From Pirellulales bacterium (GTDB taxonomy: Bacteria; Planctomycetota; Planctomycetia; Pirellulales; JADZDJ01): a stretch of DNA of 63,055 nucleotides. Where the stretch lies: the NCBI GenBank assembly GCA_020851115.1, contig JADZDJ010000183.1, positions 1 through 63,055 on the forward strand, in the 5' to 3' direction. Positions 2,344 through 28,541 of this stretch are shown piece after piece; position 1 is the stretch's first letter; each line of letters opens with the position of its first letter. Made by a program: the position numbers and the translations under genes. A model generated the notes under the pieces. The model did no database searches. It saw only the letters and a program-made list of their open reading frames with translations, and was not told where the DNA came from.

Positions 2344-2478
2344 GCGAGATGTCGCCGCCGGTAAAACGCAGGTGAGAATCTGGCACTCACTATCGTACCG
2401 AGCGGGCCGTGCAAATTCCACGAGAAGCTGCACCGACGCCCTAGTTTCTCCGCCGCAAGTTTGGGTACGATCACAAAC

Positions 2479-4434
2479 ATGGACTCCGCATTAACCAATT
2501 CGGGCAGACTGCGCATTGCTGCCTTCGAGAATCGCCGCGCGGTCGAACTGTCATCGCTCATTGAACAATTCGGCGGAATTCCGCTCATCGCGGCCGCCAT
2601 GCGAGAGGCCGCGCCCGCCAAAAACCCTGAGGCCGTCGACTTTGCGAACCGCGTCATGACCGGCCAGGTTGACACGATCATTTTTACCACGGAAGGCGGC
2701 GTCCGGCGGTTAGTCGAGCAAGTCGAGCGTCACGTCGATCGGCAGCGATTTCTAATGGCGATCTCCGATGTCGTTACGATTTCGCGCGGCCCCAAGCCCG
2801 CGGCAGCACTGCGCCAATTTGGCATTCTTCCAACTTATATTACCGCTGAACCGCACACTTGGCGAGAAATCTTGCAGACGGTCGATCACTATGTCTCTCT
2901 GGCCAATCTAACCGTCGGATTGCAAGAGCACGGCGAACCGAACGCTAGTTTGCTCGCTGGATTGGAAGCACGCGGCGCAGCGGTGATCAACTTGAAGTTG
3001 TACCGTTGGGAATTGCCCAATGATACTGCGCCTCTGGAAGCAGTGCTGAGGCAAACAGCTCGTGGGGAAATCGACGTCATACTGTTCACTTCCGGCCAAC
3101 AAGCGACCAATATCCTGAACGTTGCCGAACGTCACAATTTCGCCGATCAACTGCGTCAAGGCATCCGTTCGGCTGTCGTTGGTTCCATCGGTCCCAGCAC
3201 CAGCGCGATGTTGCGGCAACTCGATTTATCCGTGGATGCACAGCCCGACCATGCCACGATGTCGGCGCTTGTCGAAACGGTTGCAACGCGCGCCGCCGGA
3301 TTGTTGGCGAAGAAGCGTTGGCTATCGAATGCAATTCCTGCCACGGCAAAATCCACAACGATTGCGGAAACGAAACTAGCCAGTGCGTTGGACGTCAGCG
3401 ATCCGGCCTATCAAAGCGCGTTCCTTAAAGCCTGCCGCAGCGAAGCCGTGCCGTACACGCCGATTTGGCTGATGCGTCAAGCCGGCAGATATATGCCCGA
3501 ATATCGGGCGGTTCGCGAAAAGGTCGGTTTTCTTGAACTTTGCAAGGATCCCGCCCTTTGCGCCGAGGTAATGATCACTGCAGTGAAGCGGTTGGGGGTC
3601 GATGCCGCGATCATCTTTTCCGATCTGCTGCCAATTCTGGAACCGATGGGCCTCGAGTTGGAATTCGCAGCGGGAGAAGGTCCGGTAATTCACAATCCCG
3701 TGCGCGAAGCGCGCGATGTCGATCGCGTGCTGGAACTGGAAAGTGTCGAATCTCTCAGTTTTGCAATGGAAGCGGTGCGTCTCACTCGCGAAGGTTTGCC
3801 GCGCGGCCTGCCGGTGATCGGCTTTGCCGGCGCCCCGTTCACATTGGCAAGCTATGTGATCGAAGGTGGAGCGAGCAGAAACTTCTTGCATACGAAAACG
3901 CTGATGTACCGCGACAGCGGCGCATGGACCGTGCTGATGAGCCGTTTGTCCCGCGCCATTACGCGGTATCTCAACGCTCAAATTGCCGCCGGCGCCCATT
4001 GCGTGCAACTATTCGATAGCTGGGTCGGCTGCCTCAGCCCCGACGATTACCGCCGCTTCGTCCTGCCGCACGTAAAGTGCATCATCGAGGGCCTCATTCC
4101 AGGCATTCCGGTCATCAATTTCGCTACTGGCAATCCTGCGCTTATCCCACTGCAAACCGAAGCCGGCGGCAGCGTGGTCGGCATCGATTGGCGAATTCGC
4201 CTCGATGATGCCTGGCGAGCGGTCGGCCACGACCGCGCCATTCAGGGAAATTTGGAACCTGCCGTGCTGTTTGCTGACCGAAATGAGCTACGCCGGCGGG
4301 CCAAGGAAATCCTGGACCAAGCCGCCAGCCGCCCTGGACACATCTTCAACCTCGGCCACGGCATCTTGCCGCAAACGCCAGTCGATCACGCGGTAGCCCT
4401 GGTCGACGCCGTGCATGAACTGAGCGCGAAGTAG
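2479..4434 (+). CDS. hemDE: Fused uroporphyrinogen-III synthase / uroporphyrinogen decarboxylase
   Basis: One uninterrupted frame carries two successive enzymes of heme synthesis. Residues about 8-275 form a HemD-like Rossmann pair (RIAAFENRRAVELSSLIEQF, then DVILFTSGQQATNIL and SAVVGSIGPSTSAMLRQL), which closes hydroxymethylbilane to uroporphyrinogen III. After a linker, residues about 300-650 are a full HemE. Its hallmarks are PIWLMRQAGRYMPEYR (from about residue 326), FSDLLPILEPMG with the catalytic aspartate, GFAGAPFTLASYVIEGG, CVQLFDSWVG and FNLGHGILPQTP. HemE decarboxylates uroporphyrinogen III to coproporphyrinogen III, so the fusion joins consecutive steps. A TTG at 2461 is an alternative start; the ATG at 2479 is preferred. 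Both domains look intact. The gene is divergent from the hypothetical protein before it and convergent with the DUF1559 gene after it. Confidence 0.93.
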   Translation: MDSALTNSGRLRIAAFENRRAVELSSLIEQFGGIPLIAAAMREAAPAKNPEAVDFANRVMTGQVDTIIFTTEGGVRRLVEQVERHVDRQRFLMAISDVVTISRGPKPAAALRQFGILPTYITAEPHTWREILQTVDHYVSLANLTVGLQEHGEPNASLLAGLEARGAAVINLKLYRWELPNDTAPLEAVLRQTARGEIDVILFTSGQQATNILNVAERHNFADQLRQGIRSAVVGSIGPSTSAMLRQLDLSVDAQPDHATMSALVETVATRAAGLLAKKRWLSNAIPATAKSTTIAETKLASALDVSDPAYQSAFLKACRSEAVPYTPIWLMRQAGRYMPEYRAVREKVGFLELCKDPALCAEVMITAVKRLGVDAAIIFSDLLPILEPMGLELEFAAGEGPVIHNPVREARDVDRVLELESVESLSFAMEAVRLTREGLPRGLPVIGFAGAPFTLASYVIEGGASRNFLHTKTLMYRDSGAWTVLMSRLSRAITRYLNAQIAAGAHCVQLFDSWVGCLSPDDYRRFVLPHVKCIIEGLIPGIPVINFATGNPALIPLQTEAGGSVVGIDWRIRLDDAWRAVGHDRAIQGNLEPAVLFADRNELRRRAKEILDQAASRPGHIFNLGHGILPQTPVDHAVALVDAVHELSAK

Positions 4435-10683: not shown

Positions 10684-13600
10684 TCACCGCGGTCGAACTC
10701 GAAGCTGCGAGGACTTCGGCTCTGCTGCCAGACGAGCCACCGTTGACCCAGCCGCCGTCGCCGCTGGTCGAGCAGGCCTGCGCGAACTCCATGCGGCAGC
10801 GATGCTGACAACAATTATTCCTGGCCCAACGACGGCTGGGGACAGCCAAATCCACCACGCCAAACCAGCGAGCACGCCGATGCCTTCCGGCAGAAATCGG
10901 ATGCTGCGGACGCTCCTCGAAGTTCGCCAAGTAACCGCCATCAATACCCCTCCTAGCAGCACTGTGGCTAGCGCGGCCAGTAAGCGTTTCACCGTAGGGT
11001 CGCCGGCACGATGCGGAAACTCTAAGTTCAGTGTCGATTCATTGCCGCGGAGCAAGACATGCGTTTTAGCGTCACTTGAGGGTTGTATCGACTCCAGTAA
11101 TGCGCCGAGATTGGCGACGGTGGGCCGACTCGCGGTGGCTTGTTGGAAGGTGTCGGTCATGCCCAATCGATCGGCAAGCTTCGCTTGGCTGGCTACGATT
11201 TGAGCGAATTGTGCGGTCGTCTCGTCGTTCGCCGTGTCGCCAGTTTTCGCCTCAAGAATGCGTTCTCTGGCATAGCGACCTGATTGCAACCGCTGTAACC
11301 ATTCCTGATACCAACCGCTCAAACGCGATTCGGGTTCTTGAAGCGCTTCTTTTTCGGCCGATGCAAGCAAATCCGCGACACTTTGGGCCCGTAATAGGCC
11401 GTGAGCGTTTTCATCCATGATCCTGCCAGACTCGGGCGAGGCCGTTCCCATATTTTCGCGGGTGCAAATCGTCCAGAGAGTTTTTCGGACTGGTACGTCC
11501 ACCATAATTGGCGCTTGCAGTTCCGCTGGAGATTGGAAAGTGGCTGATTGCAATTGGAAATATAGAACATCGAACTGACGCGGCAGGCTGCTTTCGCCGA
11601 GCCACACATTCCAACGATTGTCGCTCAACCGCGACATTTGTGCCGGCGCGCGGTCGAGACGCGCGTCGATTAATTGCGCGCCGTTGGGCAGTTCCAGTGG
11701 ACAATTTGCCGCCCCCCCCGGTTCAAGCTCGAAGCCGGCAACTCCGACTACGCTGCCGTCAGATCGTAGTGCGATCGAAAAATCCGCCAATCGTACTTGA
11801 GCATTGCCGATGCCACGTTCCACCGAGCGTAGTTCTGCCCGATAGTAGTCCGACACTTGCTCCAGGCTGCGGTAGTTCTTGAGATCAAGATCTCCGGACG
11901 GCAAGCCTTCTGGCAAGGGCTTATCGACCAACCCAGAGGTATCCCACGAAAGCTGCTCTTGCTCGTAGCGTCTGGGAAGCAAGAGATAACTCGATCTCGA
12001 ACCAAGGCCGCGCATTCGCACTTGGGGAGCGGCCCACCGGCGGTTGGAAGCCAACGCGATTGGTCCGGCAATTCGCAAACGAAACGACTTGGCGATCGGC
12101 GATGGTGGTTGCACCACTAGCTGCTTTTGATCTCGATGAGTCGAATCTTCCCAATGGCTTGGTAGTTTCGGCACGATTTCGAACGGTCCGGTCCAATTCG
12201 CGGGAACATCGAATCGAAGTTGGTCGAGTAGCCCAGCCTCCACGCGCACGTCAACGTCGATCATTGCCTGCCATCGTTCGGCTTGTCGTTCCAGCGTCGT
12301 AAGTTGCCTTACGCGGGTGCGCGGCGAATTGGACTGAATTTTCACGGCGACTGGCGCATATTGCTTGCTGCCATTTACAACCGCCACGACGCGAGCATCC
12401 TCCAGCAATATCGCAGGAATGTCGCCACTTTCTTGCCAGGAATGACCGAGCGAGGCTTGCGAGTCCGCGGAGATCGTCGTCGCTCCGGAAGCATCCGTGA
12501 TTTCGACGAGCGCGTCTGGGCGGCGCAAGATCAGCGCGTCGAATGTTTCGTGCGAAGAGCCATCAAGGCGAATATCCGGTAAGACCCACTCGCCGGATGG
12601 CTGCAGCGGCATTCGTCCTCGGACGAGCAGTTTGCGCTCGCCCGAAAAAGAGGCGTCGAGAAAAATGGTTACGGCCGTATCACGACAGCGCGTCCAGCGC
12701 AAGGGGTGGCGCTCAGCGCCATCCAATGCCAACACTTCCTCAATTTGAAAGTTCTCCGGCGTCCGGAGGCGATATTGAAAAAACGGTGCGTCTGACGAGA
12801 CCGCCGCCTGAAAGTACAACTCAACCGCGGTCGGCTCGACAATGGCCGCCAGTTGATATCGAGCACTACGTTTTGGTACGGCGGGGTGTACGGCCAGATA
12901 GGACGCTCCAACTTCGTTACCGCTGAGTGAAAAAGCCAATTGGGGTATGGACGATGCCGCTTCCCAGGCGGCGCCAAATTCTTCAGCCGTCACTTTCGCG
13001 GCTTCGTTACTGAGGTGCGCGGAAAATTCGAGAGTCGGATCGACGCTTACCCCCCAGAATCGTCGGATGGTTTGTCCATCCCGTAAATCCATCACGGGAA
13101 AATGCAGATTGCCAATCCCCGTAGCGTCGGTCAGCATCAACGACAGGTTAACGGTCGTTTGGCCAGCGATCGGTTCAGGCCAATCGATCAGCAGCAACCC
13201 CGGCTCATTTTCCGCGACGCGAAACCTTGGCGGCACGCCCGACTCTGCCGAAGGCAACAATTGCAGCCGCGGGTCGATCGCCAAACGAAGCTGCGACAAG
13301 CGGCCTTTCCGCACTCGCACCAAATATCGTACATCGACCGTCACAGCGCCCGGTCGCACGTTAAGCCAGCAAACCTGATCGCCTTCGAAATCCGCAACTT
13401 CATGGCCGTCTTGACTCGCATGTGGCACGGGCATTGATTCTTGGAGGACAATGCGAGGTGAGGGGCCAAGCGCAACAGTCGCGTGGTCTCTATCTACTGA
13501 ACGCCTCTCCCCAATCGCTGAAACGATCAACGGCGCTGCAGAGTCACGCGATGTCAAATGCAATTCCGCGCAGGCTGTAACCGGGATGGCGAAATCGTAT

Positions 13601-16600
13601 CCGACCGCATTGTATTGTGGTCGGAATTGCACTTCTAACCGATGGCGACCGGCGTCCGGTACTTCAATACCGACGGAGTCGAGCGATTCGTTCTTACGGA
13701 GGTTCGCAGGTTTGCCATCAATCAGTACTCCGCCCGGTTCGAGTGCAGCGCCGTTGAAACCCAGCGGCATGTCGATGATGGCTTGGGTAACGAGCGATTC
13801 AATTTCGTAGATTGATTTCCAGCCGCGGGAGACAGGTGCTGCATCATTTCCTGCGCGGTTCTGAGCCGCTTCATAAACAGCACTCAATAGGAGATAATCG
13901 GGCGATGGCGATTCGTGGCGCTCCGTTTGCATCACCAGCCAACGGTGAAACGATTCCGGCAAGTAACATGCACCGCCCACAGGATGCCCGTCTGGATCCG
14001 CTGGAATCAAGACTTGAACGGGGGGTGATTCTTGGTCAACACTTGCCGTGGATTGCAGCGGCAATTTCCTGCGGTTTTCATGGGCAATCTCCGGGCGTCC
14101 TGTTTCCGCCTGGGTGGTCGTTGGTTCCTGCGCCGAAATCAGTCCGTGACAGGCTGCAACAATCAGCCATCCTGTCGCCGTTCCTGCCGCCACCAACGCT
14201 CTTCGCCGCGCAAAAGATTCACTAGCGAACATCGCGGAACCGGCCGATCCTGATCTTGGACGACACCAAAGGAAACATTGAGTTGCAACCATCGCTAGCC
14301 AAACTGCGGCGGAAAAAGTCGTCCATGCAGGTGGCACGAGGAGCGCTGCTGCCGTAACCGCTGTCACAAGACCAATTTCTACCGTTGGACGCCGATTCCC
14401 AATCCACCCGCGAATCGCCGCTGCAATTGCAAAGGTCGCCCAGAACCACGCGAGCGCTGAGCGCTCGTTGGCGACCCAGATAGTCGCTCGGTTGCCGGAG
14501 AGCCCTTCGAATCGATAGATTTTCCAGCCGTCGCTTTCCAAAAAGCGATCTTTCAAATCGACTTTCCAAGGCAACGCCAGCGATTTGTGATCGGCATCGG
14601 TTCCGTTGTCAGCCGTAACCGTCGCCGTTGACACCGATTGAATCGGAGCGTCAGCCACTCGCAGCAAAGGGCCAAACAACCTCGGCAACATGCCACGATC
14701 GTTTTGACTTCCATTTCCTAAATCGGCCCAAGCGACCTCCGTTCCGGGTGGTATTGCAACTGTCCATTTACGCATCAAAATCGGTACTGCACACTCTGGC
14801 CACGGCGATGCGAACTGCGAAAGCTTGCCAAGGCGTGCGTGCGCATCGATCCAGCGCAGGACGACGGTGATGAAACGCGCCTCGGGTGGAAGCTTAACCT
14901 GGCAGTGCTGAGGATCCGCCAGTAACGGATCGATCGTCGCTCGATCGTCGATCCAGGCGCCCTTGAGATCGGCGCCTGCCGGCAGTTGGAAGCGAATTTG
15001 GTCGCGCCCCGTATTTTCCACTCGGCAGGTTAGTACGTGCTCAGCTTCTTCATTGTCATAACGCGACTCTAAATGAGCCTGCCAAACCCACGCGCCAGCG
15101 CGGGCCGATAGCTCAAGCCGCGGAGCCAAAATCAATGGCGGCTCGGCCGACACCAAGCTGATCTCATTCGGATCGTATTGCAGTGCCGCCAGAATATTAG
15201 AAATTTGATTCGGAGGCAGCGGCTCCAGCGGGATCGACTTCAGCCGGCGGCTGCGAATCTCTGGAGCATTTGGCCCCGAGTAGCGAATCTGTACCGAAGC
15301 CAGTTGAGTGTCGGCTCTCAAGACGGAGGCCAAGGCAACGGGGGTATCACCGCGAAAAGGCCGATCGCGCTCAGCACTTAGCGAGAATTCTTTGTTCTGC
15401 GGAACAGGGAGTCTTACTTCCCATGTTTCGCCTTCGGGAAAACCCAATTCGGTTTGCTCTTCGGCCGCCAATCGACGCGACAGCAATTCGACTTGCGGTT
15501 CGCCGATTAACTGCCATCGCACAGCCTCTTCGCGCGGCTGGGTGAATCGAACGAGCAGCCGATCGATTTCCTGCCCCTGCGGTCGAATCGCCAAGTGATA
15601 CATTTCGCTTAACGTGCCTTCGTGAACGTGAACGTCGCCGCGAATGATCGTAGAGAATCGAGGCGGCTGCGCGATCGTCGAAATGGAAAGTGTTCGCGCT
15701 CGCTCGTCATCGACAAATATCAGGCCGATTGCTTGCCCTGCAAGCAACGCGGCATCGGACGACGCGAGGCTTTCGGCGGCGAGTCGCTGCAATCTTTCAT
15801 CGTTAGCGGATTGAATTTGGAGTTTCTCCGTCGTTTGAACCTGAATTAGCCGCCGTGTGGAAATCGTATCGTCAAAATCGAGCATGCGCAGGTCTTCGAC
15901 ATTTAAAGTCTCCCGACCATTCGCGCGCCGCCGATGGCCGGAGATTTTCAATTCAATGCCGCGACGTGAAGTTAAAGGAGACTTAAGTTCAATCGCCAGT
16001 TTTCCAACCCGGCCGTCCAAGGCCGTAAAATTCCAATCGTCGACCAGCTCCACGGGCTGTGGCGCCGGCATTGCCTTGCCAACCGATGCCGCTGGTGGCG
16101 CTGTTTCTCGGCCGAATTGCAACGATGTCGCCGCGACGCTGTCGATGGTCCATTGCGGAGCCACGATAGCTTCGATCGTAAATCGCTCGTCGGCAGTTGC
16201 CGTAAGTGCTCCGCGAAAGTGCCCGACTGCTTGATTCGGGCGCAACACGATCGATGTCCCGGCGGCGATTTGAATGCGATCCTGTTTGGACGCCACTTGA
16301 AATTTGATCTGCGGAGCATTGCTGTAGAGTTGCACCTCAAGGGCCTCCGGCGCCGAAGATACGGCGAGCGATTCGGCGGCGATTTGTCGGCAATCGACGG
16401 TCGTCAAGTCTTCCAGCAGGAGTGGTGGCAAAATGATTAGCGATACAGTACCTTGTTGCCAGCGCGTCTCGGCAATTTGCAGCAGTGGTAGCCGCTGAAG
16501 CGTGCCGTACTTGAGCGGAGCCACCGCGCGGATTCGCAATTTTCGATTGCGGCCCGACAACGGCTCTGGCAAGCGAAGCGTCCATTGACTGTGTCCGCCG

Positions 16601-17559
16601 ACATCGTCAGCGCTCAACTTCACAGAACATTCCACTTCGTCCAGATGCGCAGAGACGACGGTTAAAGGCTCGTCGGCCAGCAGTGTGAGCCGAGCGACTG
16701 CATCCCCGGCGGCATCCATTCGGAACTCGGCGTTCAATTCCAAACCTCGTTCGGAACACTCATAAACGAAATGATTGCGAATAATGGGTGAGGGCCGCTG
16801 CTGGCGAGACGCTTCGCGTGGAGCAATCCGCAGATGAGCTTGGGAATAGCCGCCCAGTTGGATTGCCCACGTCCGCACGCCACCTTGCGAGGTTGCCGAG
16901 GTTGCCAGCGAGACGAGTCCACGGTCGACCGTAGGAATGAGTTTGGCCGGCAAGGCGATCTCCAGAGTACTCACGGCACAAGGCGGCAGCGAGAGATCGA
17001 AACGCAGTTGGCCGCCGGCGCTTCGCTGCCCGCGCAACGACCAGTTACAGTGGAGTTTTCCAGACCGTTCGACGATCGCAGCCAATCGGCCTTGGCGGTC
17101 GCTGCCGAGAATCGCCGGTCGTTGCGAGTCTAACCAAGCGGGGCTGTTGATCGCCAGCCGGCAGTTTTCGAGGAAGACGATTTTTCGATCTTTTCCGTTA
17201 TGTTCAAAGTGCCATGTCGCCGTGCCGGTGAGGCAATCATCGGTTAACTTGGCGGCATACTGCGCATCGAGTAGACTTGCGGCAGGAATCGTCGCTGACC
17301 TGGTGTATGATTCTCCGAGTTGTCGCACGCGGCGTTCAAATTCATCAATGGACATCGGCAGGTAGTGCTGCGATTCGTCCTTCGGCCATTGATTCGGCTG
17401 ATCGGCAGGAACGAAAATCCGCTGGAATTGCCTGGGCGCGACGACACTTGTCGCAGGATCGCTTCTATCGGATGGTTCTCCGGTCGCCCCCGCGACGATT
17501 GCCAATTGTGCAATCCATATCGCGATGCCTATCCAATTGGTATTGATGCCGCTGCGCAT
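10684..17559 (-). CDS. Giant exported/membrane protein, 2291 aa, function unknown
   Basis: The start ATG (17557-17559) lies 3 nt after the stop of the 1154-aa gene, so the two are almost certainly co-translated. An N-terminal signal-like helix ([20 protein letters not shown]) is followed by [16 protein letters not shown] and [13 protein letters not shown]. After that come more than 900 residues of repeated beta-strand-rich segments of the type [17 protein letters not shown] and [21 protein letters not shown] hydrophobic cluster at about residues 1033-1150 holds several membrane segments ([33 protein letters not shown] and [12 protein letters not shown]). A second long extracytoplasmic part follows, then paired helices at about 2190-2260. 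No catalytic motif was found. It looks like two similar halves, each ending in a membrane anchor. The last 30 residues are basic. Family not recognised beyond resemblance to large planctomycete hypothetical proteins. Confidence 0.85.
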
Positions 17560-17562
17560 CGC

Positions 17563-20500
17563 TCACCTACTTGAAGATTCCGTCGATAACTCGATTTCGA
17601 CGGGAAGGCTCTCGGTCGAAGCGGGGGCCGGCGTCTCGATGGCGCGGACCGATGTTGCGGCAGGACGCGGATCAATAATGGAACTGCCGGCACTGCGAAC
17701 GATCGTCGGCGATACTCGCTGGCGGCGTTGTGCAAACTCGATCAGTGTCGCCAACAACACCAGCGCGAAACCAAGCAACGATGCCTGTACGAACAATAGC
17801 GCCAACTCGGCCTTCCACGCGGCCAGCCCCGCGATGACCACGCCCATCGCCAAGAGCGAAACCGGCCGGCGTAGGATATGAAAATAAATCAGTAACAGCC
17901 CCCAGGCGAGCACCGCGATGGAGGCCACCAACACCAATTCTCCGCGGGCGGCAGTCCAAAGTTCGATTCTAGCGGGGCTACCAGCCATGCTGAACAGGTA
18001 TCGATTCGTCGATTCCGGCAAATCGGCACCTAGATCAACGCCGGTCCAATTCTCCAATTCGTTTTGCTCCATCGTGGAGCGGCGCTGCCATCCAAACTGG
18101 TCCCATTGCCAAGTGAATTCCGGCGTAATTCGCGCCGGTGCATCGATTAAATGACGATCGGCCGGCACCGCCAGTTGCCAATAGAAGTGCTGAACGCCGA
18201 CGCTGGCCGCAAACTTGGGCAAGTCGACCGAAACCGAATGCATGTCGTCGGCGTCGGCAAGTTGATAGGTCACGACCAAGGAATGCGATGACTTTTGAAC
18301 GGGCCAACGCAATGTCACGGTGCGACTTTCGTCGGGTTGCGCTGGGATAGATTCATCATCCACTTTGATTTGAACGTGATCGAGCGGTCCGCTGGGCAAT
18401 GTGAAGCTGATTTGTTCCTCGGAACTGGACAGCACATAAGCTGCGCGGTCTTGACGCACTCCGCCGCCAATCCACGTTTGCACCCAACCTCGCTCCACCA
18501 CCGTGCTGCCCGTGCCCTGACGCACCTCGCGGCTGACGTCGAGCTGAATCTCTGACTGCGCGCCGGTCGCCGACAAGCGGATCGGTGGAATGCCATTGCG
18601 CTCGGTCAATCCGCTCGCGGGTTCTTCGTCGATCGTCCACGCCTCGTCATCGGGAGTCACCCGCAAAGCCGACTCGCGTGTTACCGTGAGACGGTTGGCG
18701 ACCAGTAAATCCGCTGGAGGCATCACGAGCGGAATCTTCACGGGATCACCCGACATAAAATCCGCTTGTGCGAAAGGCAGACGGTATTTGATCTTGGCGG
18801 TAAACCGGCCGAAGCGCGATTCGAGCAAAGGCACTCGCACCGTTGTTTTGTCGGTTCTATCGGGCGAAGTTCCTCCTGAAATGGGAGCCACCGGCACGTC
18901 GTCGATCAGAATCTGCCAGTTTTCTTGGTTTTCCACTTGCCGTGGAACGAGCAAGGTTAGCTCGGAAAGCGGCTCGTGCTCGACGCGATATTCCAATTGC
19001 TGCTCGACCACCGCGCCGTCGTGGCGAACTTCAACGGCACCGTCGACCGCGACGCTCATTGCTTGCGGCAATGGCTCTGCGACGGCAACGAATTTGGCAT
19101 GCGGCTGGTCGGCTCGATAGCTGAACGGCGGTTGTTCACGCGGCGGCAATCGCAACGTGTTTGCCGACGACACTCGAGTCAACCCGACGATTTCTTCTTC
19201 ATCAGGTCGCAATCGCACGTTGTTTTCAGGTTGAACGAGAACGGCGGCTGGCTCGATCTTGTCAGCATGCGGTGTCGGCAAAACAAGTTCGATCCGACTT
19301 CGATCTTCTGCTCGGTAACGATGAGCCGAAATCGTCAGTTCGAATTTGCCGTTGATGCCCTGTGGAAGGTGCGCTGTTTGCAACGGCCCTTCGCCAGACC
19401 AGAACTGCTCGGCATCGATGGCCTCGGTCGGCTCAATGCCGTCCGGCGTCCATCCGGGCATTTCGACTGCCAAGTCGAACACCTTGCCGCCTCGGATGGT
19501 GTATTTCAGCTTCGCTTCAAGTCGGATTCGGTCGGCTTCAACCTTGTAGGTATACTCCGGCTCCAACGCAATTTGTGTCTTTCGCGGCGAAACCCGCGCC
19601 GCCAACGATGCAGGTCGGCCGAAGTACTTGAAGCCGATGGCGTCGTCGCGCTTGAGTGCGGGAGGCAATTCTTCAATCTGTCGCACGCGCTCGGTCTTGC
19701 TGAAGGATAATCGCCAGTCATCTCGCACCACGACGGCAATGTGGCCCCATTGTAAGTGCGGCAATGCTTCTACTACGTCGAATCCCGCCAATTCGAGCGT
19801 CTCGCTGGGGTTCGTCGCATCGTAGGCGCGTTCGGCCGCAATGCGTACCTTGACCGGACCTTTGCTTTTCTGGGCTAATTGTACGGTGACAATCCCTTCA
19901 TCATCCGTGCCGCCGGTTAGCGTATAGCCGGCATTGTTTGTGTCGGCGGCAACGCGACTGGACTTCGCCGGCAACTTGATCTGAAATCGATCGAACTCGT
20001 CGGCCAGGCTACGAACGGTCAGCAAAGCGTCAAATCGCACGCTGCGGCTATCGAGTTCTGCGAGAATCTGCCCTTCAACTTCTAGCCGCGACGTTGCCGG
20101 CGCCACCGTTGCAGCGCCTTCTTTCCACATGAGTGAAAGCGGACCACCCAAGCCCCAAGCATGGATTTCCGACTTGCCGTCGTCGAGATGACCGACGTCG
20201 GCAGTAACTGCGCCTGTATAGGTCGTCACGGAAACGCTATCGTGCGGCACCACAATCGATAATCGCGAGGCCGCGGCAGTGGGCAAATCGACTTCCAGTC
20301 GTCGCTGGCCGTGGACATTCTTTAGCGTCACGAAGTATTTGAGCGTCAACTCGTGCTGCGATTTCGCAGGCCCCTGGACGACGACCGAATATCCACCGGT
20401 AGCGGCATCAAATTGAACGCGTTGATCACCAGGGCCGTGATAGGAGGCCGGCTCGATTAACACAGCGCCGCCGGTCACTAGCGGCACGGTTGACAACTGC

Positions 20501-21027
20501 TCGTCGCCCAGCCGAATCGTATACGTCGCCGTCAGTTGCGCTCGGTTTTCGGTGGCCTCGCCTGCGATCACCAGTTGCTGCAAATCATGCGAACGCGGTT
20601 GTGACGCACCGTTGCTTTCGGCTTGCTTCCGGCGATGAAATTCTTGAAGTTCCTCCCAGGTAAAGCCCAAGAGAGGAACGAGCCGACCTTGCTTGTCGCG
20701 GACATACTTGATTGCCGGTTGTTCGAGGATGCGCTGGGAATGTTCCGGTTTGGCGGAATGGTTCGTTGATTCAGATTGATCGTCGTCCGCTGCCGTAGCT
20801 GGTGGGGAAGCCGCCGTTTGTGGCTCACCGTCCGCCGCGCGCGCAATGCGTCTCCTGGTATCGGCGCTGGTAAAAACCAGCGCCAAAAGCACCGCGACTA
20901 CCAGACGCTTGGCGTTCGGTCGCAAGGATCCTGTTCCAATCTGCTTGATGCCTTTGTCCGGACTGGCGGGACAGCAGCACAATGAAAAGTTGCCGGGACG
21001 AAAGTACTTCGGCACGCCGGCCGCCAC
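17563..21027 (-). CDS. Large exported/membrane protein, 1154 aa, partner of the giant gene
   Basis: A basic N-terminus leads to a signal-like helix (KRLVVAVLLALVFTSA) and then an acidic/Ser-rich stretch. After that comes YVRDKQGRLVPLLGFTWEEL, which parallels the [13 protein letters not shown] region of the next gene. The middle is beta-rich (QLTATYTIRLGDEQLSTVPL, LSIVVPHDSVSVTTY, HELTLKYFVTL). The C-terminus has membrane helices at about residues 1000-1085 (LVLVASIAVLAWGLLLIYF and LLAMGVVIAGLAAW) and a Ser/Pro/Thr-rich cytoplasmic tail. The start is uncertain: ATG at 21027 leaves about 40 residues before the signal, and a TTG near 20925 would be tighter. It shares fold-like features and arrangement with the 2291-aa protein and probably works with it. 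No enzymatic motif seen. Confidence 0.85.
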   Translation of the reverse strand: MAAGVPKYFRPGNFSLCCCPASPDKGIKQIGTGSLRPNAKRLVVAVLLALVFTSADTRRRIARAADGEPQTAASPPATAADDDQSESTNHSAKPEHSQRILEQPAIKYVRDKQGRLVPLLGFTWEELQEFHRRKQAESNGASQPRSHDLQQLVIAGEATENRAQLTATYTIRLGDEQLSTVPLVTGGAVLIEPASYHGPGDQRVQFDAATGGYSVVVQGPAKSQHELTLKYFVTLKNVHGQRRLEVDLPTAAASRLSIVVPHDSVSVTTYTGAVTADVGHLDDGKSEIHAWGLGGPLSLMWKEGAATVAPATSRLEVEGQILAELDSRSVRFDALLTVRSLADEFDRFQIKLPAKSSRVAADTNNAGYTLTGGTDDEGIVTVQLAQKSKGPVKVRIAAERAYDATNPSETLELAGFDVVEALPHLQWGHIAVVVRDDWRLSFSKTERVRQIEELPPALKRDDAIGFKYFGRPASLAARVSPRKTQIALEPEYTYKVEADRIRLEAKLKYTIRGGKVFDLAVEMPGWTPDGIEPTEAIDAEQFWSGEGPLQTAHLPQGINGKFELTISAHRYRAEDRSRIELVLPTPHADKIEPAAVLVQPENNVRLRPDEEEIVGLTRVSSANTLRLPPREQPPFSYRADQPHAKFVAVAEPLPQAMSVAVDGAVEVRHDGAVVEQQLEYRVEHEPLSELTLLVPRQVENQENWQILIDDVPVAPISGGTSPDRTDKTTVRVPLLESRFGRFTAKIKYRLPFAQADFMSGDPVKIPLVMPPADLLVANRLTVTRESALRVTPDDEAWTIDEEPASGLTERNGIPPIRLSATGAQSEIQLDVSREVRQGTGSTVVERGWVQTWIGGGVRQDRAAYVLSSSEEQISFTLPSGPLDHVQIKVDDESIPAQPDESRTVTLRWPVQKSSHSLVVTYQLADADDMHSVSVDLPKFAASVGVQHFYWQLAVPADRHLIDAPARITPEFTWQWDQFGWQRRSTMEQNELENWTGVDLGADLPESTNRYLFSMAGSPARIELWTAARGELVLVASIAVLAWGLLLIYFHILRRPVSLLAMGVVIAGLAAWKAELALLFVQASLLGFALVLLATLIEFAQRRQRVSPTIVRSAGSSIIDPRPAATSVRAIETPAPASTESLPVEIELSTESSSR

Positions 21028-21545: not shown

Positions 21546-22244
21546 ATGCCACGTCAAGCGCGAAGAATTGTCGGCGGATACATCTATCACGTGCTCAATC
21601 GAGCCAACGGACGACAACGCCTGTTTAAGAAGGACGCTGATTTCACGGCATTTGAAAATGTCGTGGCCGAGGCCCGCGAGCACGTGCCGCTGCGGATTCT
21701 CGGCTACACGGTCATGCGCAACCACTGGCACTTTGTCGTGTGGCCCAAGCAGGGGAAACACGAGCAGGTGTCGGAATTCTTCCGCTGGATGACGGCGACC
21801 CATTCACAGCGTTGGCATTCGCAGCACGATACCACCGGCATGGGCCATCTTTACCAGGGCCGGTTTAAATCGTTCCCGATTTCCGCCGACGAGCATCTAT
21901 TGGCTGTGCTGCGCTATGTAGAACGCAACGCGCTACGGGCAGGACTCGTCAATAAAGCCGAAGCCTGGCGCTGGAGCAGCCTTTATCGCCGATTGCACGG
22001 CTCGCCGGAAGAGCGAGCATTGCTGACCGAATCCCCAGTACCGCTCGGACGATTGTGGACGAAGCATGTGAACAATCCGGAACCCGAAGCGGAACTGGCG
22101 GCCATCCGGCGCAGCGTCGTCCGCGGTCAACCTTTCGGCGGCGAGCAGTGGACAAAGCGAGTCACCCGACTAATGGGACTAGAACACACCTTCCGCCCCC
22201 GCGGCCGCCCGCGATTGCAGCCCCTTGCCGTTCCCGCCATCTAG
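21546..22244 (+). CDS. REP-associated tyrosine transposase (RAYT, Y1 family)
   Basis: This single-strand HUH nuclease of the IS200/IS605-related TnpA_REP type nicks and rejoins palindromic DNA. The opening PRQARRIVGGYIYHVLNR is typical. The metal-binding HUH motif is HWH at residues 60-62 within MRNHWHFVVWP, and the nucleophile is the tyrosine of RYVERNALRAGLV (Tyr124). DTTGMGHLYQGRFKSF is the usual conserved block between them. The C-terminus is extended and basic (FRPRGRPRLQPL). Length (232 aa) is normal and the gene looks intact. Only a weak inverted similarity flanks it (AATTGCCGCC at the start, GGCGGAATT just after the stop), so no REP/BIME array was identified. Such genes are usually domesticated single copies rather than mobile IS elements. 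Confidence 0.9.
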   Translation: MPRQARRIVGGYIYHVLNRANGRQRLFKKDADFTAFENVVAEAREHVPLRILGYTVMRNHWHFVVWPKQGKHEQVSEFFRWMTATHSQRWHSQHDTTGMGHLYQGRFKSFPISADEHLLAVLRYVERNALRAGLVNKAEAWRWSSLYRRLHGSPEERALLTESPVPLGRLWTKHVNNPEPEAELAAIRRSVVRGQPFGGEQWTKRVTRLMGLEHTFRPRGRPRLQPLAVPAI

Positions 22245-22580
22245 CGGCGGAATTCAGAAATCGGCAGGATAATGATTCACGCCCGCTAAGCAATGGGTTT
22301 TCATTCCGCTACCCATTTGTTATTTGTTATCCACATCCATCCGCAGACTTACGAATGTGTAATGTCCAGCTAGTTTGCCTCGACCTATCATAAACATTTC
22401 GTAACAATATGAACTTTTGGAACTTGCACCTGTAGCATTTTATCCAGACTGCCACAATTCCTGCCTCGTGAATCGCTTTGAACGCTGCGCGGCTGGTCTC
22501 GCCGCGGGCCGAAAAAGTGCGCAATTGCTTTGCTGGCTGCCATTTGCAGCATCTTTGAGTGTCTTGATTGGAACCTGGCC

Positions 22581-25500
22581 GTGAATTCCGCCGCTTTGTT
22601 TGAATCGAGAAATAGCCCCAGTGCCGATTTGCGCTGGAAATTTGATCGCTTGCAGCAGATCATCGAACGCGCAGCCCATCGCCTGCCGTCGCAGGGACCG
22701 ATTTCGACATTCATTCATCATAACACGCTGCACGCCTTGGAAGGACTGCGCTTTCAGGCTGCTGTGGCGGAAGGGTCCAAAGTCTTCGGTTGCAATGCCT
22801 ATCTCTCGGAAGACCGTTATCGCGATCAGTTGGCGAAAGGTCGAATCCGCGGAGAAGATCTGGAAGCCATCCTGTGTCGTGACTTAGGGCCGGAGGCCGA
22901 CGTGCCTGTCCTGCCAGGATGTCGCCGCATCGACCTCCGGCTAGCAATGTTGCGCTATCCGCTGCGAGCTGCGCCATCCACCGAGCTTCGCTGGTTCTTC
23001 GCTGAGATGGATGCGCTGCGAAAATTTCGCACCGATGCTCCCGATAATGCCCGGCAGCAATTCCTCGATGAAGCGCGGCACTGGGCGATGCGCGACCTGC
23101 GGCTCAACGCGCAGTCGCCCACTGCGATCAACAATGCGACCGATCGATCGCTAGTCGCACTGTTGAATCGATTCGGCGCAAAATCGATCGAACATTGGAG
23201 CGCCGCTACCTGGGAAGCCTTTGCACTGCAGGCGCTGTGGCGAGTCGTGCGCGATGGTGTTCACGACGTTCCGCCGCCTACCGATGCCGCGCAGCCGAAT
23301 CTTCGCGGGCGCGACTGGCTGCTTTCGGTAACCGGGGAAGATGCCGACTGGCTCGTGAACGACTTGCTAATTCGATTTTGTGGAGCGTTTCTCGACCAAG
23401 GATTTGCCACCTGCCCGCTTCCAAACCGCGATCAGGGGTTCTTCCGAGCGTTTTGCGAACTCTATCGTCAGCGTGGAACATCACCGGACCGATGGCGACG
23501 CGATTTGGCTGGCGAGTTGGCTCGATGGGAAAATCTGCAAGCGACGCCGTTGGACTGCATCCTGGAATCGCTCGACGAACTTGGAATCGCGGAATATAAC
23601 TGGGAAGAGTTTATTTCACAGACATTCCTCGCGTTGCGCGGTTGGGGTGGAATGATTCGTCAGATGGCCTTGCGAGACGCCGCCGCAGTGCAGGCGACGC
23701 TGCCGCAAAGCATCGTGGAATTTCTGGCGGTACGTTTACTGTTGGATCGGCTGGCGTGGAAACACTTGGCGAAGCGCGTGTCAAGTTTCAGCGGGCCGCT
23801 CAGCGAGTTGCGGCAAGTCCATCGGCCTTCGTTTGGGGTGAACGAAACCGCGGGGGTCGATCAGCGCGCATTCGCTCTTTTCCAATTGGCTCAAGTCTTG
23901 GGGTGGCCGCCTTCGGTACTGCATCGATTGTCCGCCGAATCATGGGTATCGCTAGTCGAGGAAATCGAGGCTTTTCCTGAAATCGAGCGCCAACGAGTTT
24001 TGCATTTCGCCTACGAACGGCGATATCGCATTCAAACTCTCGACGGCATACAGATCGCATCTAGGGAGAATGCCAAGCAAAGGCTTCGGCCCGAGTTTCA
24101 GGTGGTTTGTTGCATTGATGAGCGGGAAGAATCGTTCCGCCGACACTTGGAAGAGATTGCTCCTCAGGTTCAGACTTTCGGCGCGGTCGGCTTCTTTAAT
24201 CTGGCGATGTACTATCGCGGCGCGGCCGACGCAAACTTTACTCCTCTGTGCCCGATTTCCACCCAGCCGTACATTTGGGTTCAAGAGGAAGTCGCGTATT
24301 CCATGACCGATGTCCATCGTCGGCGCGCTTCGGCTCGACGAGCACTGGGCGCAGCATCGCACCGCGTTCATATCGGAAGCCGCAGCTTTGCCGGCGGATT
24401 GATCGCGGCGATTTTTGGAATGCTGGCGTCGATTCCGCTCGTGGCGCGAATCATGTTTCCCCGATTGACGGCTCGAGTGCGGCGGATCTTTGCCCGATTT
24501 ATCCAGCCTCCGCCGGTGACGCAATTGCAATTGGAACGCATCGACGCTTCGCCAGGGCACGAAAACCGCGGAATCGGGCTCTCGCTGCAGGAAATGGTGG
24601 TTGCCGGCGAGCAATTCCTCCGCGATATCGGCATGACGGGAGAATTCACGCGAATTGTTGTGGTGTTGGGACACGGCTCCAGCAGCCTCAACAACCCGCA
24701 CAACTCCGCCTACAACTGCGGCGCTTGCGGAGGCGCCGCCGGCGGCCCCAACGCACGCGCGATCGCGCGAATTCTCAACGATCCACGGGTACGATTTATC
24801 CTGGCGGAGCGCGGCTTGAAAGTTCCGGATGAAACCGTGTTTATCGGCGGAATACACAACACTTGCACCGATTCAGTTGCATTCCTGGATATCGACGACT
24901 TTCCGCCAGCTCGGCTGCGAGAATTTGAAGCAATTCGCGCTCTGATCGAACAAGCTTGCAACCGAAATGCTCACGAGCGATGTCGACGATTCCAGTCCGC
25001 TCCGCTCGATTTGTCATTTGAGGAAGCCCGCGCCCACGTCGAGGAGCGCTCGGAAGACCTCTCTCAAACGCGGCCGGAATGCGGGCACGCAACAAATGCG
25101 GTTTGCTATGTCGGACGCCGCGAGCGAGTTCGCGGGCTGTATATGGACCGTCGCACCTTCCTGGTTTCCTACAATCCGACAAAAGACTCTGCCGACTCGG
25201 ATATCCTCTTGCGGCTGCTGCAAGCGGCAGTGCCAGTTTGCGCTGGTATTAACTTGGAATACTACTTTTCGTATGTTGATCCGGCCGGTTGGGGGTGTGG
25301 TTCAAAATTGCCTCACAACGTCACGTCGCTTTTGGGAGTGATGGACGGCGCTGCGAGCGACCTGCGAACTGGCCTACCCTGGCAGATGGTGGAAATCCAC
25401 GAACCTGTCCGCTTGCTCTTCGTCGTCGAAACGACGCCGGAAGCGATGATGAGCATACTCGATCGGAGCGAAGAAATCGGCCGGCTATTTCGCAACGAGT

Positions 25501-25673
25501 GGATTCAACTAGCGATCCACAGTCCTGGTGCGTCGGATATTCATGTCTTTGTCGATGGGCGACTGGAACCTTACCTTGGCGCAGCCTCCGAATTGCCGCG
25601 AGTCGGTTCATCGACTGAGTGGTATCGCGGCTGGCGCGACCACTTGGGATATGCGCTGATTGAGTCGTCGTAA
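22581..25673 (+). CDS. dabA: Inorganic carbon transporter subunit DabA (DUF2309)
   Basis: DabA is the cytoplasmic, beta-carbonic-anhydrase-like subunit of DAB, which couples CO2 hydration or bicarbonate accumulation to a cation gradient. The predicted zinc site is complete. CIDEREESFRRHLEE supplies Cys511 and Asp513. LGHGSSSLNNPHNS supplies His698, and NCGACGG supplies Cys713 (Cys716 is also present). His to Cys spacing is 15 residues, as I recall for characterised DabA. FIHHNTLHALEG near the N-terminus is another family hallmark. At 1030 aa it is longer than the roughly 830 aa of proteobacterial DabA, mostly in the N-terminal half. The start is GTG 22581; a TTG at 22530 is possible. The membrane-subunit gene follows after 37 nt. 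Confidence 0.92.
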   Translation: MNSAALFESRNSPSADLRWKFDRLQQIIERAAHRLPSQGPISTFIHHNTLHALEGLRFQAAVAEGSKVFGCNAYLSEDRYRDQLAKGRIRGEDLEAILCRDLGPEADVPVLPGCRRIDLRLAMLRYPLRAAPSTELRWFFAEMDALRKFRTDAPDNARQQFLDEARHWAMRDLRLNAQSPTAINNATDRSLVALLNRFGAKSIEHWSAATWEAFALQALWRVVRDGVHDVPPPTDAAQPNLRGRDWLLSVTGEDADWLVNDLLIRFCGAFLDQGFATCPLPNRDQGFFRAFCELYRQRGTSPDRWRRDLAGELARWENLQATPLDCILESLDELGIAEYNWEEFISQTFLALRGWGGMIRQMALRDAAAVQATLPQSIVEFLAVRLLLDRLAWKHLAKRVSSFSGPLSELRQVHRPSFGVNETAGVDQRAFALFQLAQVLGWPPSVLHRLSAESWVSLVEEIEAFPEIERQRVLHFAYERRYRIQTLDGIQIASRENAKQRLRPEFQVVCCIDEREESFRRHLEEIAPQVQTFGAVGFFNLAMYYRGAADANFTPLCPISTQPYIWVQEEVAYSMTDVHRRRASARRALGAASHRVHIGSRSFAGGLIAAIFGMLASIPLVARIMFPRLTARVRRIFARFIQPPPVTQLQLERIDASPGHENRGIGLSLQEMVVAGEQFLRDIGMTGEFTRIVVVLGHGSSSLNNPHNSAYNCGACGGAAGGPNARAIARILNDPRVRFILAERGLKVPDETVFIGGIHNTCTDSVAFLDIDDFPPARLREFEAIRALIEQACNRNAHERCRRFQSAPLDLSFEEARAHVEERSEDLSQTRPECGHATNAVCYVGRRERVRGLYMDRRTFLVSYNPTKDSADSDILLRLLQAAVPVCAGINLEYYFSYVDPAGWGCGSKLPHNVTSLLGVMDGAASDLRTGLPWQMVEIHEPVRLLFVVETTPEAMMSILDRSEEIGRLFRNEWIQLAIHSPGASDIHVFVDGRLEPYLGAASELPRVGSSTEWYRGWRDHLGYALIESS

Positions 25674-25710
25674 ACGTTGCAAATACCGGATTAAGGCAAG
25701 GGAGTGACCT

Positions 25711-27099
25711 TTGGACCTGATTACAAATTTAGAAACAGCATTTGCCTATCTGATCGTTGGCGCACCTGCGCTGTTGGTTGTCGTACTTGGCTTGTGTCTT
25801 CTGTTTGAGCGACCGCTGAGCGAGCGAACAACGTGCCAACTAGTGGCTACTGTGCTGTCTGTGGGGTTTATCTCGGCTCTGGCGATGAGTGGATGCGCGT
25901 GGTTGCACGGCATGCCGCAGCGAACGGTGCCGCTGGGCGATTGGGTCGTTGTTTCGGGTTACAAATTCTCCGGAAAATTGCTGTTTGACTGGCTTTCGCT
26001 GCTATTTCTGGTTCTATCGTTCATGCTCTGCGGCGTGATCGGTCGATTTGCGACTCACTACTTGCACCGCGAACCGGGGTTCCATCGCTTCTTTGTGCTA
26101 TTTGCTGTTTTTGTTTTCGGAATGACGCTGACTTCGATCGCCGGGACGATCGAAACCCTGTTCACCGGCTGGGAATTGGTCGGTTTGTCGTCGGCACTGC
26201 TTGTGGCGTTCTTTCAAGATCGCTCAGCTCCTGTGCGAAATGGGTTGCGCGTCTGGTCGGTCTATCGAATATCCGACGCGGCTTTGCTGATTGGCGCCGT
26301 CGCGCTTCACGGGATGAAAGGTTTTGGCGACTTCCAGGCGCTGTTTGGCGAGACTGCTTGGCCGCACGGCGAGCCGAGGCTACTTGCGTCGCAAGCGCTG
26401 CTCGTGGGAGTCTTATTCGCGGTCGCGGCGGCTGGAAAATCCGCGCTTGTACCATTTTCCGGTTGGCTGCCGCGCGCCATGGAAGGCCCGACCCCATCGA
26501 GCGCTATTTTCTACGGTGCACTGTCCGTGCATCTGGGCGCGTTCTTGCTATTACGCGCCGGCCCGCTGATTTCCCTGTCGATTCCACTCTGTGTGCTGCT
26601 CGTGGTCTGGGGACTGGCTACCGCGGCCCTATCCGCCAGCGCAGCACGCGTTCAAAGCGATATCAAAAGTGCTTTGGCGTTCGCGTCGTTGACGCAAGTG
26701 GGATTGATCGTGGCCGAAATCGGTCTCGGGTTGCGTTGGATTCCGCTGATTCACATGATTGGTCACGCCTCGTTGCGTACGCTGCAATTCGTTCGCGCTC
26801 CCAATCTGCTGCAGGATTACCGATCGATGGAAAACGCCATGGGTAGGCGGCTGCCGCACTCGATCAACGCCCCTCGGCGTGTCCTGCGATCGCGGTGGCA
26901 AAGGTGGTTTTATCGCTGGGCGCTGGAACGCGGCTATTTTGACGAATTTCTCAATGAATTTATCGTACGGCCCTTTTTGTCCATGTTTCGCTGGTTTGAT
27001 TCGCTGGAGCGCCGGTGGACTGATTTCTTATCGAGTCGTCCTTCGCGCGAGTCTGATGAAATCAAACCGCATAGCGACTTGGTTGAGGAATTCGTATGA
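25711..27099 (+). CDS. dabB: DabB-like NuoL-type membrane subunit
   Basis: The start is TTG 25711, set by a strong AAGGGAGTGA ribosome binding sequence 7-10 nt before it. The protein is a multi-pass antiporter-like (Proton_antipo_M) subunit. It has GWELVGLSSALLVAFFQDR, the AGKSALVPFSGWLP block with the conserved lysine, MEGPTPSSAIFYGALSV, and DIKSALAFASLTQVG carrying the second lysine. At 462 aa it is shorter than NuoL (about 600). It ends in a soluble Arg/Glu-rich tail of about 90 residues (RWFYRWALERGYFDEFLNEF) that resembles the C-terminal arm of NuoL/DabB. It should drive cation movement coupled to DabA. The stop overlaps the next ATG (ATGA), so translation is coupled. Confidence 0.9.
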   Translation: MDLITNLETAFAYLIVGAPALLVVVLGLCLLFERPLSERTTCQLVATVLSVGFISALAMSGCAWLHGMPQRTVPLGDWVVVSGYKFSGKLLFDWLSLLFLVLSFMLCGVIGRFATHYLHREPGFHRFFVLFAVFVFGMTLTSIAGTIETLFTGWELVGLSSALLVAFFQDRSAPVRNGLRVWSVYRISDAALLIGAVALHGMKGFGDFQALFGETAWPHGEPRLLASQALLVGVLFAVAAAGKSALVPFSGWLPRAMEGPTPSSAIFYGALSVHLGAFLLLRAGPLISLSIPLCVLLVVWGLATAALSASAARVQSDIKSALAFASLTQVGLIVAEIGLGLRWIPLIHMIGHASLRTLQFVRAPNLLQDYRSMENAMGRRLPHSINAPRRVLRSRWQRWFYRWALERGYFDEFLNEFIVRPFLSMFRWFDSLERRWTDFLSSRPSRESDEIKPHSDLVEEFV

Positions 27100-28541
27100 C
27101 GACGCTGCATTTGCCGTGGCTCGAAGCGTCTATTCTCGTGTTACTGGGCGGCGCGGCATGGGTTTCGAGGCTGCGCACGGCGGAAGCGAAATCATCCACC
27201 TGCTTGTGGATTTCAGCGATTGCATTTGCGTTGACCGTCGCAGCTTGGGTGGATTATGTGGCGCTGATGCAAGAAACGGCCCAAGGGCCAGTTGCGTCGT
27301 GGCTGGAACTCGAAAGTATTCTAATCATCGACTCGTTAGCTGCGCCGCTTCTGCCGTTGGCGTCGATTCTGTATTTGTTCACATTCGCAGGAACGTTGAA
27401 AACAAAGTTTCGGCAGTTTTCGTTTCCAGGAGCATTAATCGCGGAGGCGATCTTGCTGGCGATATTCGCTTGCCGGGCCGGTTGGCCGCTGGCAGTGCTG
27501 TTAATGTTCCGCCTCGTCCCGCCCTACTTGGAAATGCGAAGCCGCGATAAGCCGACGGGAGCCTACGTATTCCATCTGCTTGCTTTCGCCATCCTGCTCG
27601 TCGGAGGTTATGCGCTGGTCAAGAGCCAAACCCAATTGCCGGCCAGTGGCTGGATCGTAGCGCCCCTGACGATCGCCGTTCTCATCCGCGGCGGCATTGC
27701 GCCATTTCATTGTTGGGCGCCCGATTTGTTCGAGCATGCAACCTTTGGCACCGCGCTGCTGTTTCTGACGCCGATGGTTGGTGCGTACTCCGCGGCAAGA
27801 TTTGTACTGCCCATTGCCACCATCGACACCTTGCATGCGCTCGGTCTGATTGCATTGGTCTCGGCCTTGTACGCGGCGGGCATGGCAATGATTCAGCGAG
27901 AGGCTCGACGCTTCTTTTGTTATCTACTGCTAAGTCACTCGGCGCTGGTGTTTGTCGGCCTCATGAGCGGCTTCGAGGTGTGCCTTACCGGAGGTTTGTG
28001 CATCTGGCTCTCGATTGGCCTGTCGTTGGGAGGCTTGGGATTGACCTTGCGAGCGTTGGAGGCTCGCCACGGGCGATTATCGCTAGTCCGGTTCCAAGGG
28101 TTGTACGATCACACCCCGGCGCTGGCCGTCTGTTTTCTGTTGACGGGCCTGGCAAGCGTAGGGTTTCCCTATACGTTTGGCTATATTGGAACTGAAATGC
28201 TTGTGGATGGCGCCATTCACGCGTATCCATACGTCGTCGGCGCGATCGTCGTGATGGTCGCCGCGCTCAATGGCATTGCCGTAGTGCAAGCGTACTTCAA
28301 AATATTCACCGGCTCGCAGCACGTTTCGACGATTCACTTGGGCATCGGCATTCGCGAGCGCTGGACAGTGCTGAGCTTAGCCGCGCTAATTTTCGCGGGC
28401 GGATTGTTTCCGCAATCCGGAGTTGCTTCGCGCTTTCACGCCGCCCAAGAGTTGCTGAAACCGCAACAAACGCATCCTGCGTCGCCAAGGTCCGCGAACT
28501 TGTCGCCCGTGCGACACGTCAGCCGTCGCAGTGACGGGTAA
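27096..28541 (+). CDS. Second Nuo-like membrane subunit of the DAB locus
   Basis: A 481-aa multi-pass protein with NuoM/NuoN character follows. IRGGIAPFHCWAPDLFEHA corresponds to the 'KGG..PFH.W.PD.YE.AP' block, with arginine at the usual lysine position. After that come FLTPMVGAYSAARFVLP, MAMIQREARRFFCYLLLSHS and FGYIGTEMLVDGAIH. The start ATG at 27096 overlaps the stop of the previous subunit by 4 nt. Standard DAB operons have one DabB; here the membrane part is split over two different antiporter-like subunits. The C-terminus carries about 40 polar, Ser/Arg-rich residues. I infer that this is a third DAB subunit because of the tight coupling and lack of any other nuo gene in the window. 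Confidence 0.85.
   Translation: MTTLHLPWLEASILVLLGGAAWVSRLRTAEAKSSTCLWISAIAFALTVAAWVDYVALMQETAQGPVASWLELESILIIDSLAAPLLPLASILYLFTFAGTLKTKFRQFSFPGALIAEAILLAIFACRAGWPLAVLLMFRLVPPYLEMRSRDKPTGAYVFHLLAFAILLVGGYALVKSQTQLPASGWIVAPLTIAVLIRGGIAPFHCWAPDLFEHATFGTALLFLTPMVGAYSAARFVLPIATIDTLHALGLIALVSALYAAGMAMIQREARRFFCYLLLSHSALVFVGLMSGFEVCLTGGLCIWLSIGLSLGGLGLTLRALEARHGRLSLVRFQGLYDHTPALAVCFLLTGLASVGFPYTFGYIGTEMLVDGAIHAYPYVVGAIVVMVAALNGIAVVQAYFKIFTGSQHVSTIHLGIGIRERWTVLSLAALIFAGGLFPQSGVASRFHAAQELLKPQQTHPASPRSANLSPVRHVSRRSDG

Follow-up and report, generated by a model that had tools for sequence, protein, structure and literature searches.

Two adjacent genes of a Pirellulales bacterium (GenBank assembly GCA_020851115.1, contig JADZDJ010000183.1; Planctomycetota, Planctomycetia), here named S and B, encode three paralogous giant exported proteins, one specified by S and two, BN and BC, joined within B. 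Each of the three would carry a row of five beta domains and end in a membrane anchor, and a tentative case is made below for a periplasmic scaffold. The window, that is, the whole stretch of DNA analysed, is 63,055 nucleotides (nt) long. Both open reading frames (ORFs) lie on its minus strand, S (1154 amino acids, aa) upstream of B (2291 aa) with 3 nt between them in the ORF calls. An earlier reading made from the sequence alone (the sequence-only reading) had described the same two genes as a pair of exported proteins with no recognised function. They are indeed conserved neighbours, but the natural unit, judged from split genes in relatives, is a set of three proteins. This architecture and the joint retention of its three parts are well supported.

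The relationship between the units was assessed with profiles built on 41 sequences of S and 40 of B. S matched BN with an E-value of 6.6e-47 over 1018 columns and BC with 3e-43 over 957 columns, while BN matched BC with 7e-40 over 987 columns; once the signal and membrane parts were removed, the values became 2.9e-42, 1.5e-40 and 7.2e-38, respectively. Controls in which the second profile was reversed gave at best 0.015 (S/BN), 0.029 (S/BC) and 0.0074 (BN/BC), and those with shuffled columns 0.58-0.95 in 15 comparisons, so that all controls were at least 0.007. These values argue for homology of S, BN and BC across their entire ectodomains and for B as a tandem of S-type units, which is what the sequence-only reading had supposed. 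The conserved "opening" stretch mentioned in that reading is likewise found, by eye, at the start of S, BN and BC alike.

B is regarded as a fusion here because BN and BC are separate genes adjoining S in six relatives (L108, L110, L121, L122, L141, and L142). In the four of these whose BC N-ends were looked at (L108, L110, L121, and L122), that end is hydrophobic and signal-like. The central membrane cluster that had been noticed in the larger protein (hydropathic segments 1060-1078 and 1123-1141) would then combine the anchor of BN with what was presumably once the signal of BC.

Single-sequence searches, whose counts are therefore lower bounds, matched S in 188 of the 297 genomes of the class and BN in 151; 109 genomes have both, and 230 have either or both. 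When 40 class loci were chosen from the S matches to cover many families, a B-type ORF adjoined S in all of them (39 complete, one cut by a contig end), in line with the conservation expected of the pair. A 4-nt stop/start overlap of the ATGA type is possible in 26 of these loci, and a possible B start lies within -20 to +60 nt of the S stop in 39, which suggests that translation of S and B may be coupled. A scan of named genomes from many phyla with two patterns gave 52 loci, all with S by construction: 25 carry a fused B, four a split one, and three a B cut by the contig end; two have BN alone, both near a contig end, nine have S without an adjoining B, and in the remaining nine S itself sits at a contig end.

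Nine genomes of the S-only kind were searched for the other parts elsewhere, and loss of B could be rejected: BN and BC were each located in 9/9, on different contigs in eight and fused in one (G535). Although homologous to each other, the two queries had different best-matching positions in the eight genomes, and both positive controls (L099 and L108) were matched. Retention of the full set of three thus does not depend on linkage of the genes.

The system had been suspected to be specific to planctomycetes. The named relatives from the pattern scan are all labelled as such except for L075 and L088, the latter labelled just "bacterium"; however, the distribution is phylum-wide rather than limited to one class, with S matched in 24 further genomes of the phylum outside the class (40/246 in all). 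Among 32 additional loci, comprising 20 of these 24 and 12 class loci picked for second copies or BN matches, 23 have S with a fused B (the B of L151 and the S of L152 being cut by the fetched stretch), two have a split B, three show two ORFs only (two of them cut), three a short B, and one (L146) S alone. A search of S against a plasmid collection gave no match, which carries little weight as few planctomycete plasmids are expected in it.

Several relatives depart from the common arrangement. Six class genomes (L127-L132) hold a second, more diverged S-B pair with a B of 2640-2800 aa. In L152, B is followed by a third ORF of the S/B type (1286 aa), and the locus may carry four units. L135, L136, and L137 have a short B (1169-1594 aa) beside S, with the BC part reduced or missing. 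The contig of L075, labelled Candidatus Nealsonbacteria, carries a typical planctomycete S-B pair and is probably mis-binned.

Regarding layout, hydropathy and the models of S and BC agree with the earlier description of a signal, a long beta-rich region, and membrane anchors. The N-terminal signal of S falls below the hydropathy threshold and is seen as a helix in the model, and its C-end has three hydropathic membrane segments (1023-1041, 1051-1069, and 1075-1093). Besides the N-terminal segment and the central cluster, B has C-terminal segments at 2193-2211 and 2226-2244 and an extra weak one at 598-616, within the beta region. The S anchor holds conserved R1053, Q1081, and G1086, which fit helix packing between subunits. 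Beyond it, the C-terminal tail of S (17563-17715) has a short Ser/Thr-Pro stretch common to many relatives (T1138 in 73%, P1142 in 71%). The sequence-only reading had proposed a surface or envelope system; the signal sequences and anchors imply the envelope, but the anchors favour the periplasm over the surface.

S itself holds five domains whose starts are spaced 168-186 aa. Repeat profiles relate D2 to D3 (E 1.9e-12), D3 to D4 (1e-10), D2 to D4 (1.9e-7), and D4 to D5 (1.2e-6); D1 compared with the other four, and D2 with D5, give weaker values (2e-5 to 4e-4), and D3-D5 (0.012) is inseparable from the controls (0.016-0.41). AlphaFold2 models computed from alignments of the window sequences with their relatives show the same plan in S and BC, five tandem beta sandwiches followed by membrane helices. 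Their mean predicted local distance difference test scores (pLDDT) are 81 and 77, and their predicted template modelling scores (pTM) 0.48 and 0.47, respectively; the S tail (1105-1154) has a pLDDT under 50.

Structure comparison of single domains led to the N-terminal domain of M1 aminopeptidases. Residues 655-832 of S matched LTA4H with Z 12.3 and a root-mean-square deviation (rmsd) of 3.9 over 162 aligned residues, and 840-1026 with Z 12.2 and 3.2 over 154; in the BC model, 439-618 matched ERAP1 (Z 13.6, rmsd 3.3, 156 aligned) and 796-1058 LTA4H (Z 13.3, rmsd 3.0, 153 aligned). The tool cautions that Z under ~13 may reflect a common arrangement for repeats, and weight is placed here on low-rmsd single-domain values that recur in two separately modelled proteins. 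The tested domains of S and BC are thus predicted to have an M1 N-domain-like fold visible by structure only. Among the matches listed, only Ost1/ribophorin I extended over two consecutive domains with more than 300 residues aligned, at Z 14.7, rmsd 11.9, and 311 aligned for S and Z 13.7, rmsd 22.0, and 319 aligned for BC; these rmsd values imply that the angle between the domains differs. A fold in common with the M1 N-domain and ribophorin I does not establish common function or ancestry.

By sequence, membership in a known family was rejected, as searches of Pfam, NCBIfam and PDB gave no match above cut-off for S or B, in agreement with the absence of a characterised family noted earlier. 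Pfam and NCBIfam returned nothing for B and just Big_1 for S (E 0.56, far below cut-off). Against PDB chains, phmmer found no match for S and one chance match for B (2lte, E 1.2), and even at E<=10 a profile built from 45 S sequences had no match. In a Pfam scan of 41 S and 30 BC relatives, the matches were weak and scattered; DUF5693 appeared weakly in 9 of the 41 S members (best E 0.00037), a signal that probably reflects similarity between membrane helices. The same scans contained none of the BatD or vWA-associated large beta families. BatD and vWA-associated proteins are alike in general description, being large, beta-rich and exported, with C-terminal membrane helices and sometimes a vWA protein beside them.

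M1 aminopeptidases carry an HExxH zinc motif together with a GxMEN-type motif. A motif scan found neither in S nor in B, which bears out the lack of a catalytic motif reported from the sequence; across the family, HExxH occurs in 6 of 229 ORFs longer than 900 aa, and its position varies. With a threshold of 80% of the sequences, the conserved columns consist of P, G, L, W, Y, V, A, Q, and R in S (41 sequences) and of P, G, W, L, F, A, V, Y, and R in B (40 sequences); D, E, H, C, K, S, and T are all absent. Because the zinc motif is absent and these residues are missing from such columns, S and B are in all likelihood non-enzymatic, and the conservation pattern would fit a structural or binding protein. 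The single domains resemble the M1 N-terminal domain (LTA4H, ERAP1, APN; PF17900) over ~155 residues with an rmsd of 3-4 Å, but S and B lack the catalytic domain and chain their domains in tandem, and neither PF17900 nor PF01433 was matched at E<=1 by the window S and B, the 41 S, or the 30 BC members.

The reading tentatively favoured here, at somewhat under an even chance, is that S, BN, and BC form a three-subunit, membrane-anchored, non-enzymatic scaffold, tether, or spacer of the periplasm, perhaps under envelope-stress control. The three would be paralogous subunits of one exported complex, with BN and BC fused in this genome. Each would be exported by its signal sequence, would place a short cap and five catalytically inactive M1-N-like beta sandwiches in the periplasm, and would be anchored in the cytoplasmic membrane through a helix bundle at its C-terminus. 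Together, these 15 domains could act as long arms that bind envelope partners and organise the planctomycete periplasm, which, according to the available part of PMC5394234, can be greatly enlarged. Export and anchor signals, homology of the units, repeat number, conservation, and co-retention are supported at the sequence level; fold and anchors are predictions, and the assembly of the three units and the scaffold role are inferred. Several points weigh against this proposal. Location, assembly, and function are all deduced from sequence and prediction; the fold of BN is taken over from its homology to S and BC; and the arrangement of domains along the arm is not fixed by the models, given their pTM. 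At a 60% threshold, a few polar columns do occur (e.g., D326, H959, and E992 of S), which would be compatible with a small functional site, and the absence of conserved polar residues is also compatible with a binding or regulatory role. Furthermore, no result points to contact of the arms with the outer membrane or peptidoglycan, and the module found upstream in some loci outside the class, consisting of an extracytoplasmic function (ECF) sigma factor and a vWA protein, points to signalling as well.

That module underlies a rather unlikely alternative, an envelope-stress sensing or output system in which the arms would pair with, or be acted on by, a vWA/YfbK-type anti-sigma protein and the ECF sigma factor that belongs to it. 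In L150 and L155, a sigma factor, a zinc-finger-vWA(YfbK) protein, S, and B follow one another on one strand, nearly touching (the sigma factor of L155 and both vWA proteins were assigned by Pfam, that of L150 by 52% identity to L155's), and a vWA/YfbK protein also lies directly upstream on the same strand in L145 and L149. vWA domains bind protein ligands in integrins. However, these are 4 of 20 non-class loci, relatives of these vWA proteins were found in none of the 40 class loci, and in 24 of those 40 the same-strand gene upstream belongs to one cluster, whose three scanned members are of the inositol-monophosphatase family by Pfam. About as doubtful is a function like that of ribophorin I, with the arms as non-catalytic accessory subunits by which exported polypeptides (or glycans) would be held for, or presented to, either a membrane enzyme or the Sec translocon. 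Its attraction lies in Ost1 being, among the matches listed, the sole two-domain match of both independent models and in the shared order of a signal sequence, tandem M1-N-like extracytoplasmic beta domains, and an anchor near the C-end, again with no enzyme site. As the accessible text of PMC7226087 has it, the luminal part of Ost1 has two beta domains that resemble each other and bind glycosylated peptide. Ribophorin I, however, is one protein of two domains with a single membrane helix and a folded cytosolic ribosome-binding domain, in contrast to five domains in each of three paralogous units and, in S, three hydropathic segments, a helix bundle (1028-1104), and a low-confidence tail. In addition to the differing domain angle, PF04597 (ribophorin I) had no match at E<=1 in the window S and B, the 41 S, or the 30 BC members, and the catalytic partner STT3 (PF02516) had none in the same genome (98.8% complete); in the class, it was matched in 7 of 98 genomes at E<=0.001 and in 2 of 98 over cut-off. 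Membership of the oligosaccharyltransferase (OST) complex was rejected on these grounds.

A bolder version, considered improbable, sees in the three subunits with their 15 domains a relative of the ribophorin I arm that occurs throughout the phylum and works at the membrane with exported polypeptides or glycans in the absence of STT3; if true, planctomycetes would have their own equivalent of the non-catalytic portion of the eukaryotic translocon/OST machinery, possibly of common ancestry with it. In the parts available, one source reports OST1 in eukaryotes and in TACK and Asgard archaea (PMC11417166) and another that BLASTp uncovered no relatives of the non-catalytic subunits of OST among bacteria or archaea (PMC4973528). 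Still less probable is a role as a surface adhesin or in a cell-surface layer. Adhesins typically have long repeated beta domains, and integrin alpha chains, which are built of a beta-propeller head plus thigh and calf domains, came first by Foldseek E-value (1e-7 to 5e-10), but those alignments have an rmsd of ~22-39 Å and TM-scores of ~0.1, a beads-on-a-string similarity, and multi-helix anchors in a phylum-wide three-part set are unlike a variable adhesin. Likeness to integrins or to the alpha-2-macroglobulin family, the latter marked by a thioester domain and appearing in weak Foldseek rows alone (5a42, probability 0.30; 6tav, probability 0.12), is probably that of mere strings of beta domains.

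The sequence-only reading had also spoken of a system of a new kind, which holds for the missing sequence family but not for the fold, predicted to be that of the M1 N-domain and the ribophorin I arm. S, BN, and BC are best placed as a membrane-anchored, non-catalytic M1-N-domain kind, belonging neither to ribophorin I nor to the M1 aminopeptidases. Literature searches turned up no paper on this gene pair or on ribophorin-like proteins in planctomycetes, and the available portion of PMC8567305 does not name these proteins; as far as these searches show, the building block is known and the bacterial system of three times five domains undescribed. Planctomycete cell biology is unusual and depends to a large degree on proteins whose function is unknown. 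Three giant exported paralogues kept throughout the phylum, even when unlinked, are strong candidates for a part of this cell plan, and the link to the ribophorin I fold, missed by the sequence searches used here, gives a testable idea of how such parts are constructed. In the text available, a transposon study counts 108 essential proteins that lack a known function and are specific to the phylum (PMC10632474). The features of the two genes are listed in Table 1.

Table 1. Features of genes S and B, in window coordinates; residues are numbered within each protein.
Feature	Coordinates	Strand	Basis or remark
Gene S, first of the pair	17563..21027	-	1154 aa, GTG start; homologues in 188/297 class genomes
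S signal-sequence helix, residues 39-62	20842..20913	-	Model; hydrophobic N-end in several relatives
S opening motif, residues 104-138	20614..20718	-	Short beta hairpin + helix in model; alignment-conserved
S domain 1, residues 142-310	20098..20604	-	Predicted M1 N-domain-like; Z ~12, rmsd 3.4-3.5, ~158 aligned
S domain 2, residues 311-478	19594..20097	-	Repeat family by sequence profile (D2-D3)
S domain 3, residues 479-652	19072..19593	-	Repeat family by sequence profile (D3-D4)
S domain 4, residues 653-838	18514..19071	-	Predicted M1 N-domain-like (LTA4H, Z 12.3)
S domain 5, residues 839-1027	17947..18513	-	Predicted M1 N-domain-like (LTA4H); domains 4+5 match Ost1
S membrane anchor helices, residues 1028-1104	17716..17946	-	Hydropathy and model
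Gene B (BN + BC), second of the pair	10684..17559	-	2291 aa, ATG start
B N-terminal signal, residues 5-23	17491..17547	-	Hydropathy
BN unit, B residues 1-1150	14110..17559	-	S homologue; ends in central membrane cluster, from ~1060
BC unit, B residues 1180-2291	10687..14022	-	S homologue; own gene in some relatives
Helical insertion in last beta domain of BC, B residues 2050-2158	11086..11412	-	BC model helices 926-1034
B C-terminal membrane helices, residues 2188-2259	10783..10998	-	Hydropathy and model

Around the pair, pyrD lies directly downstream (DHO_dh, E 1.6e-69), the neighbour already named in the sequence-only reading. Just upstream of S is a divergent IS200/REP-associated tyrosine-type transposase (21546-22244, plus strand), at the place where relatives often carry the inositol-monophosphatase family gene. 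It is followed by a DabA-type inorganic carbon transporter gene and two NuoL/Mrp-like membrane subunits (22530-28541, plus strand). The window contains no tRNA. Elsewhere in it, a single ORF (2461-4434, plus strand) joins uroporphyrinogen-III synthase (HemD) and uroporphyrinogen decarboxylase, and the minus strand encodes an Omp85/BamA-type protein of 1195 aa with POTRA domains (38569-42156) and an M13-family peptidase of 680 aa (43740-45782).

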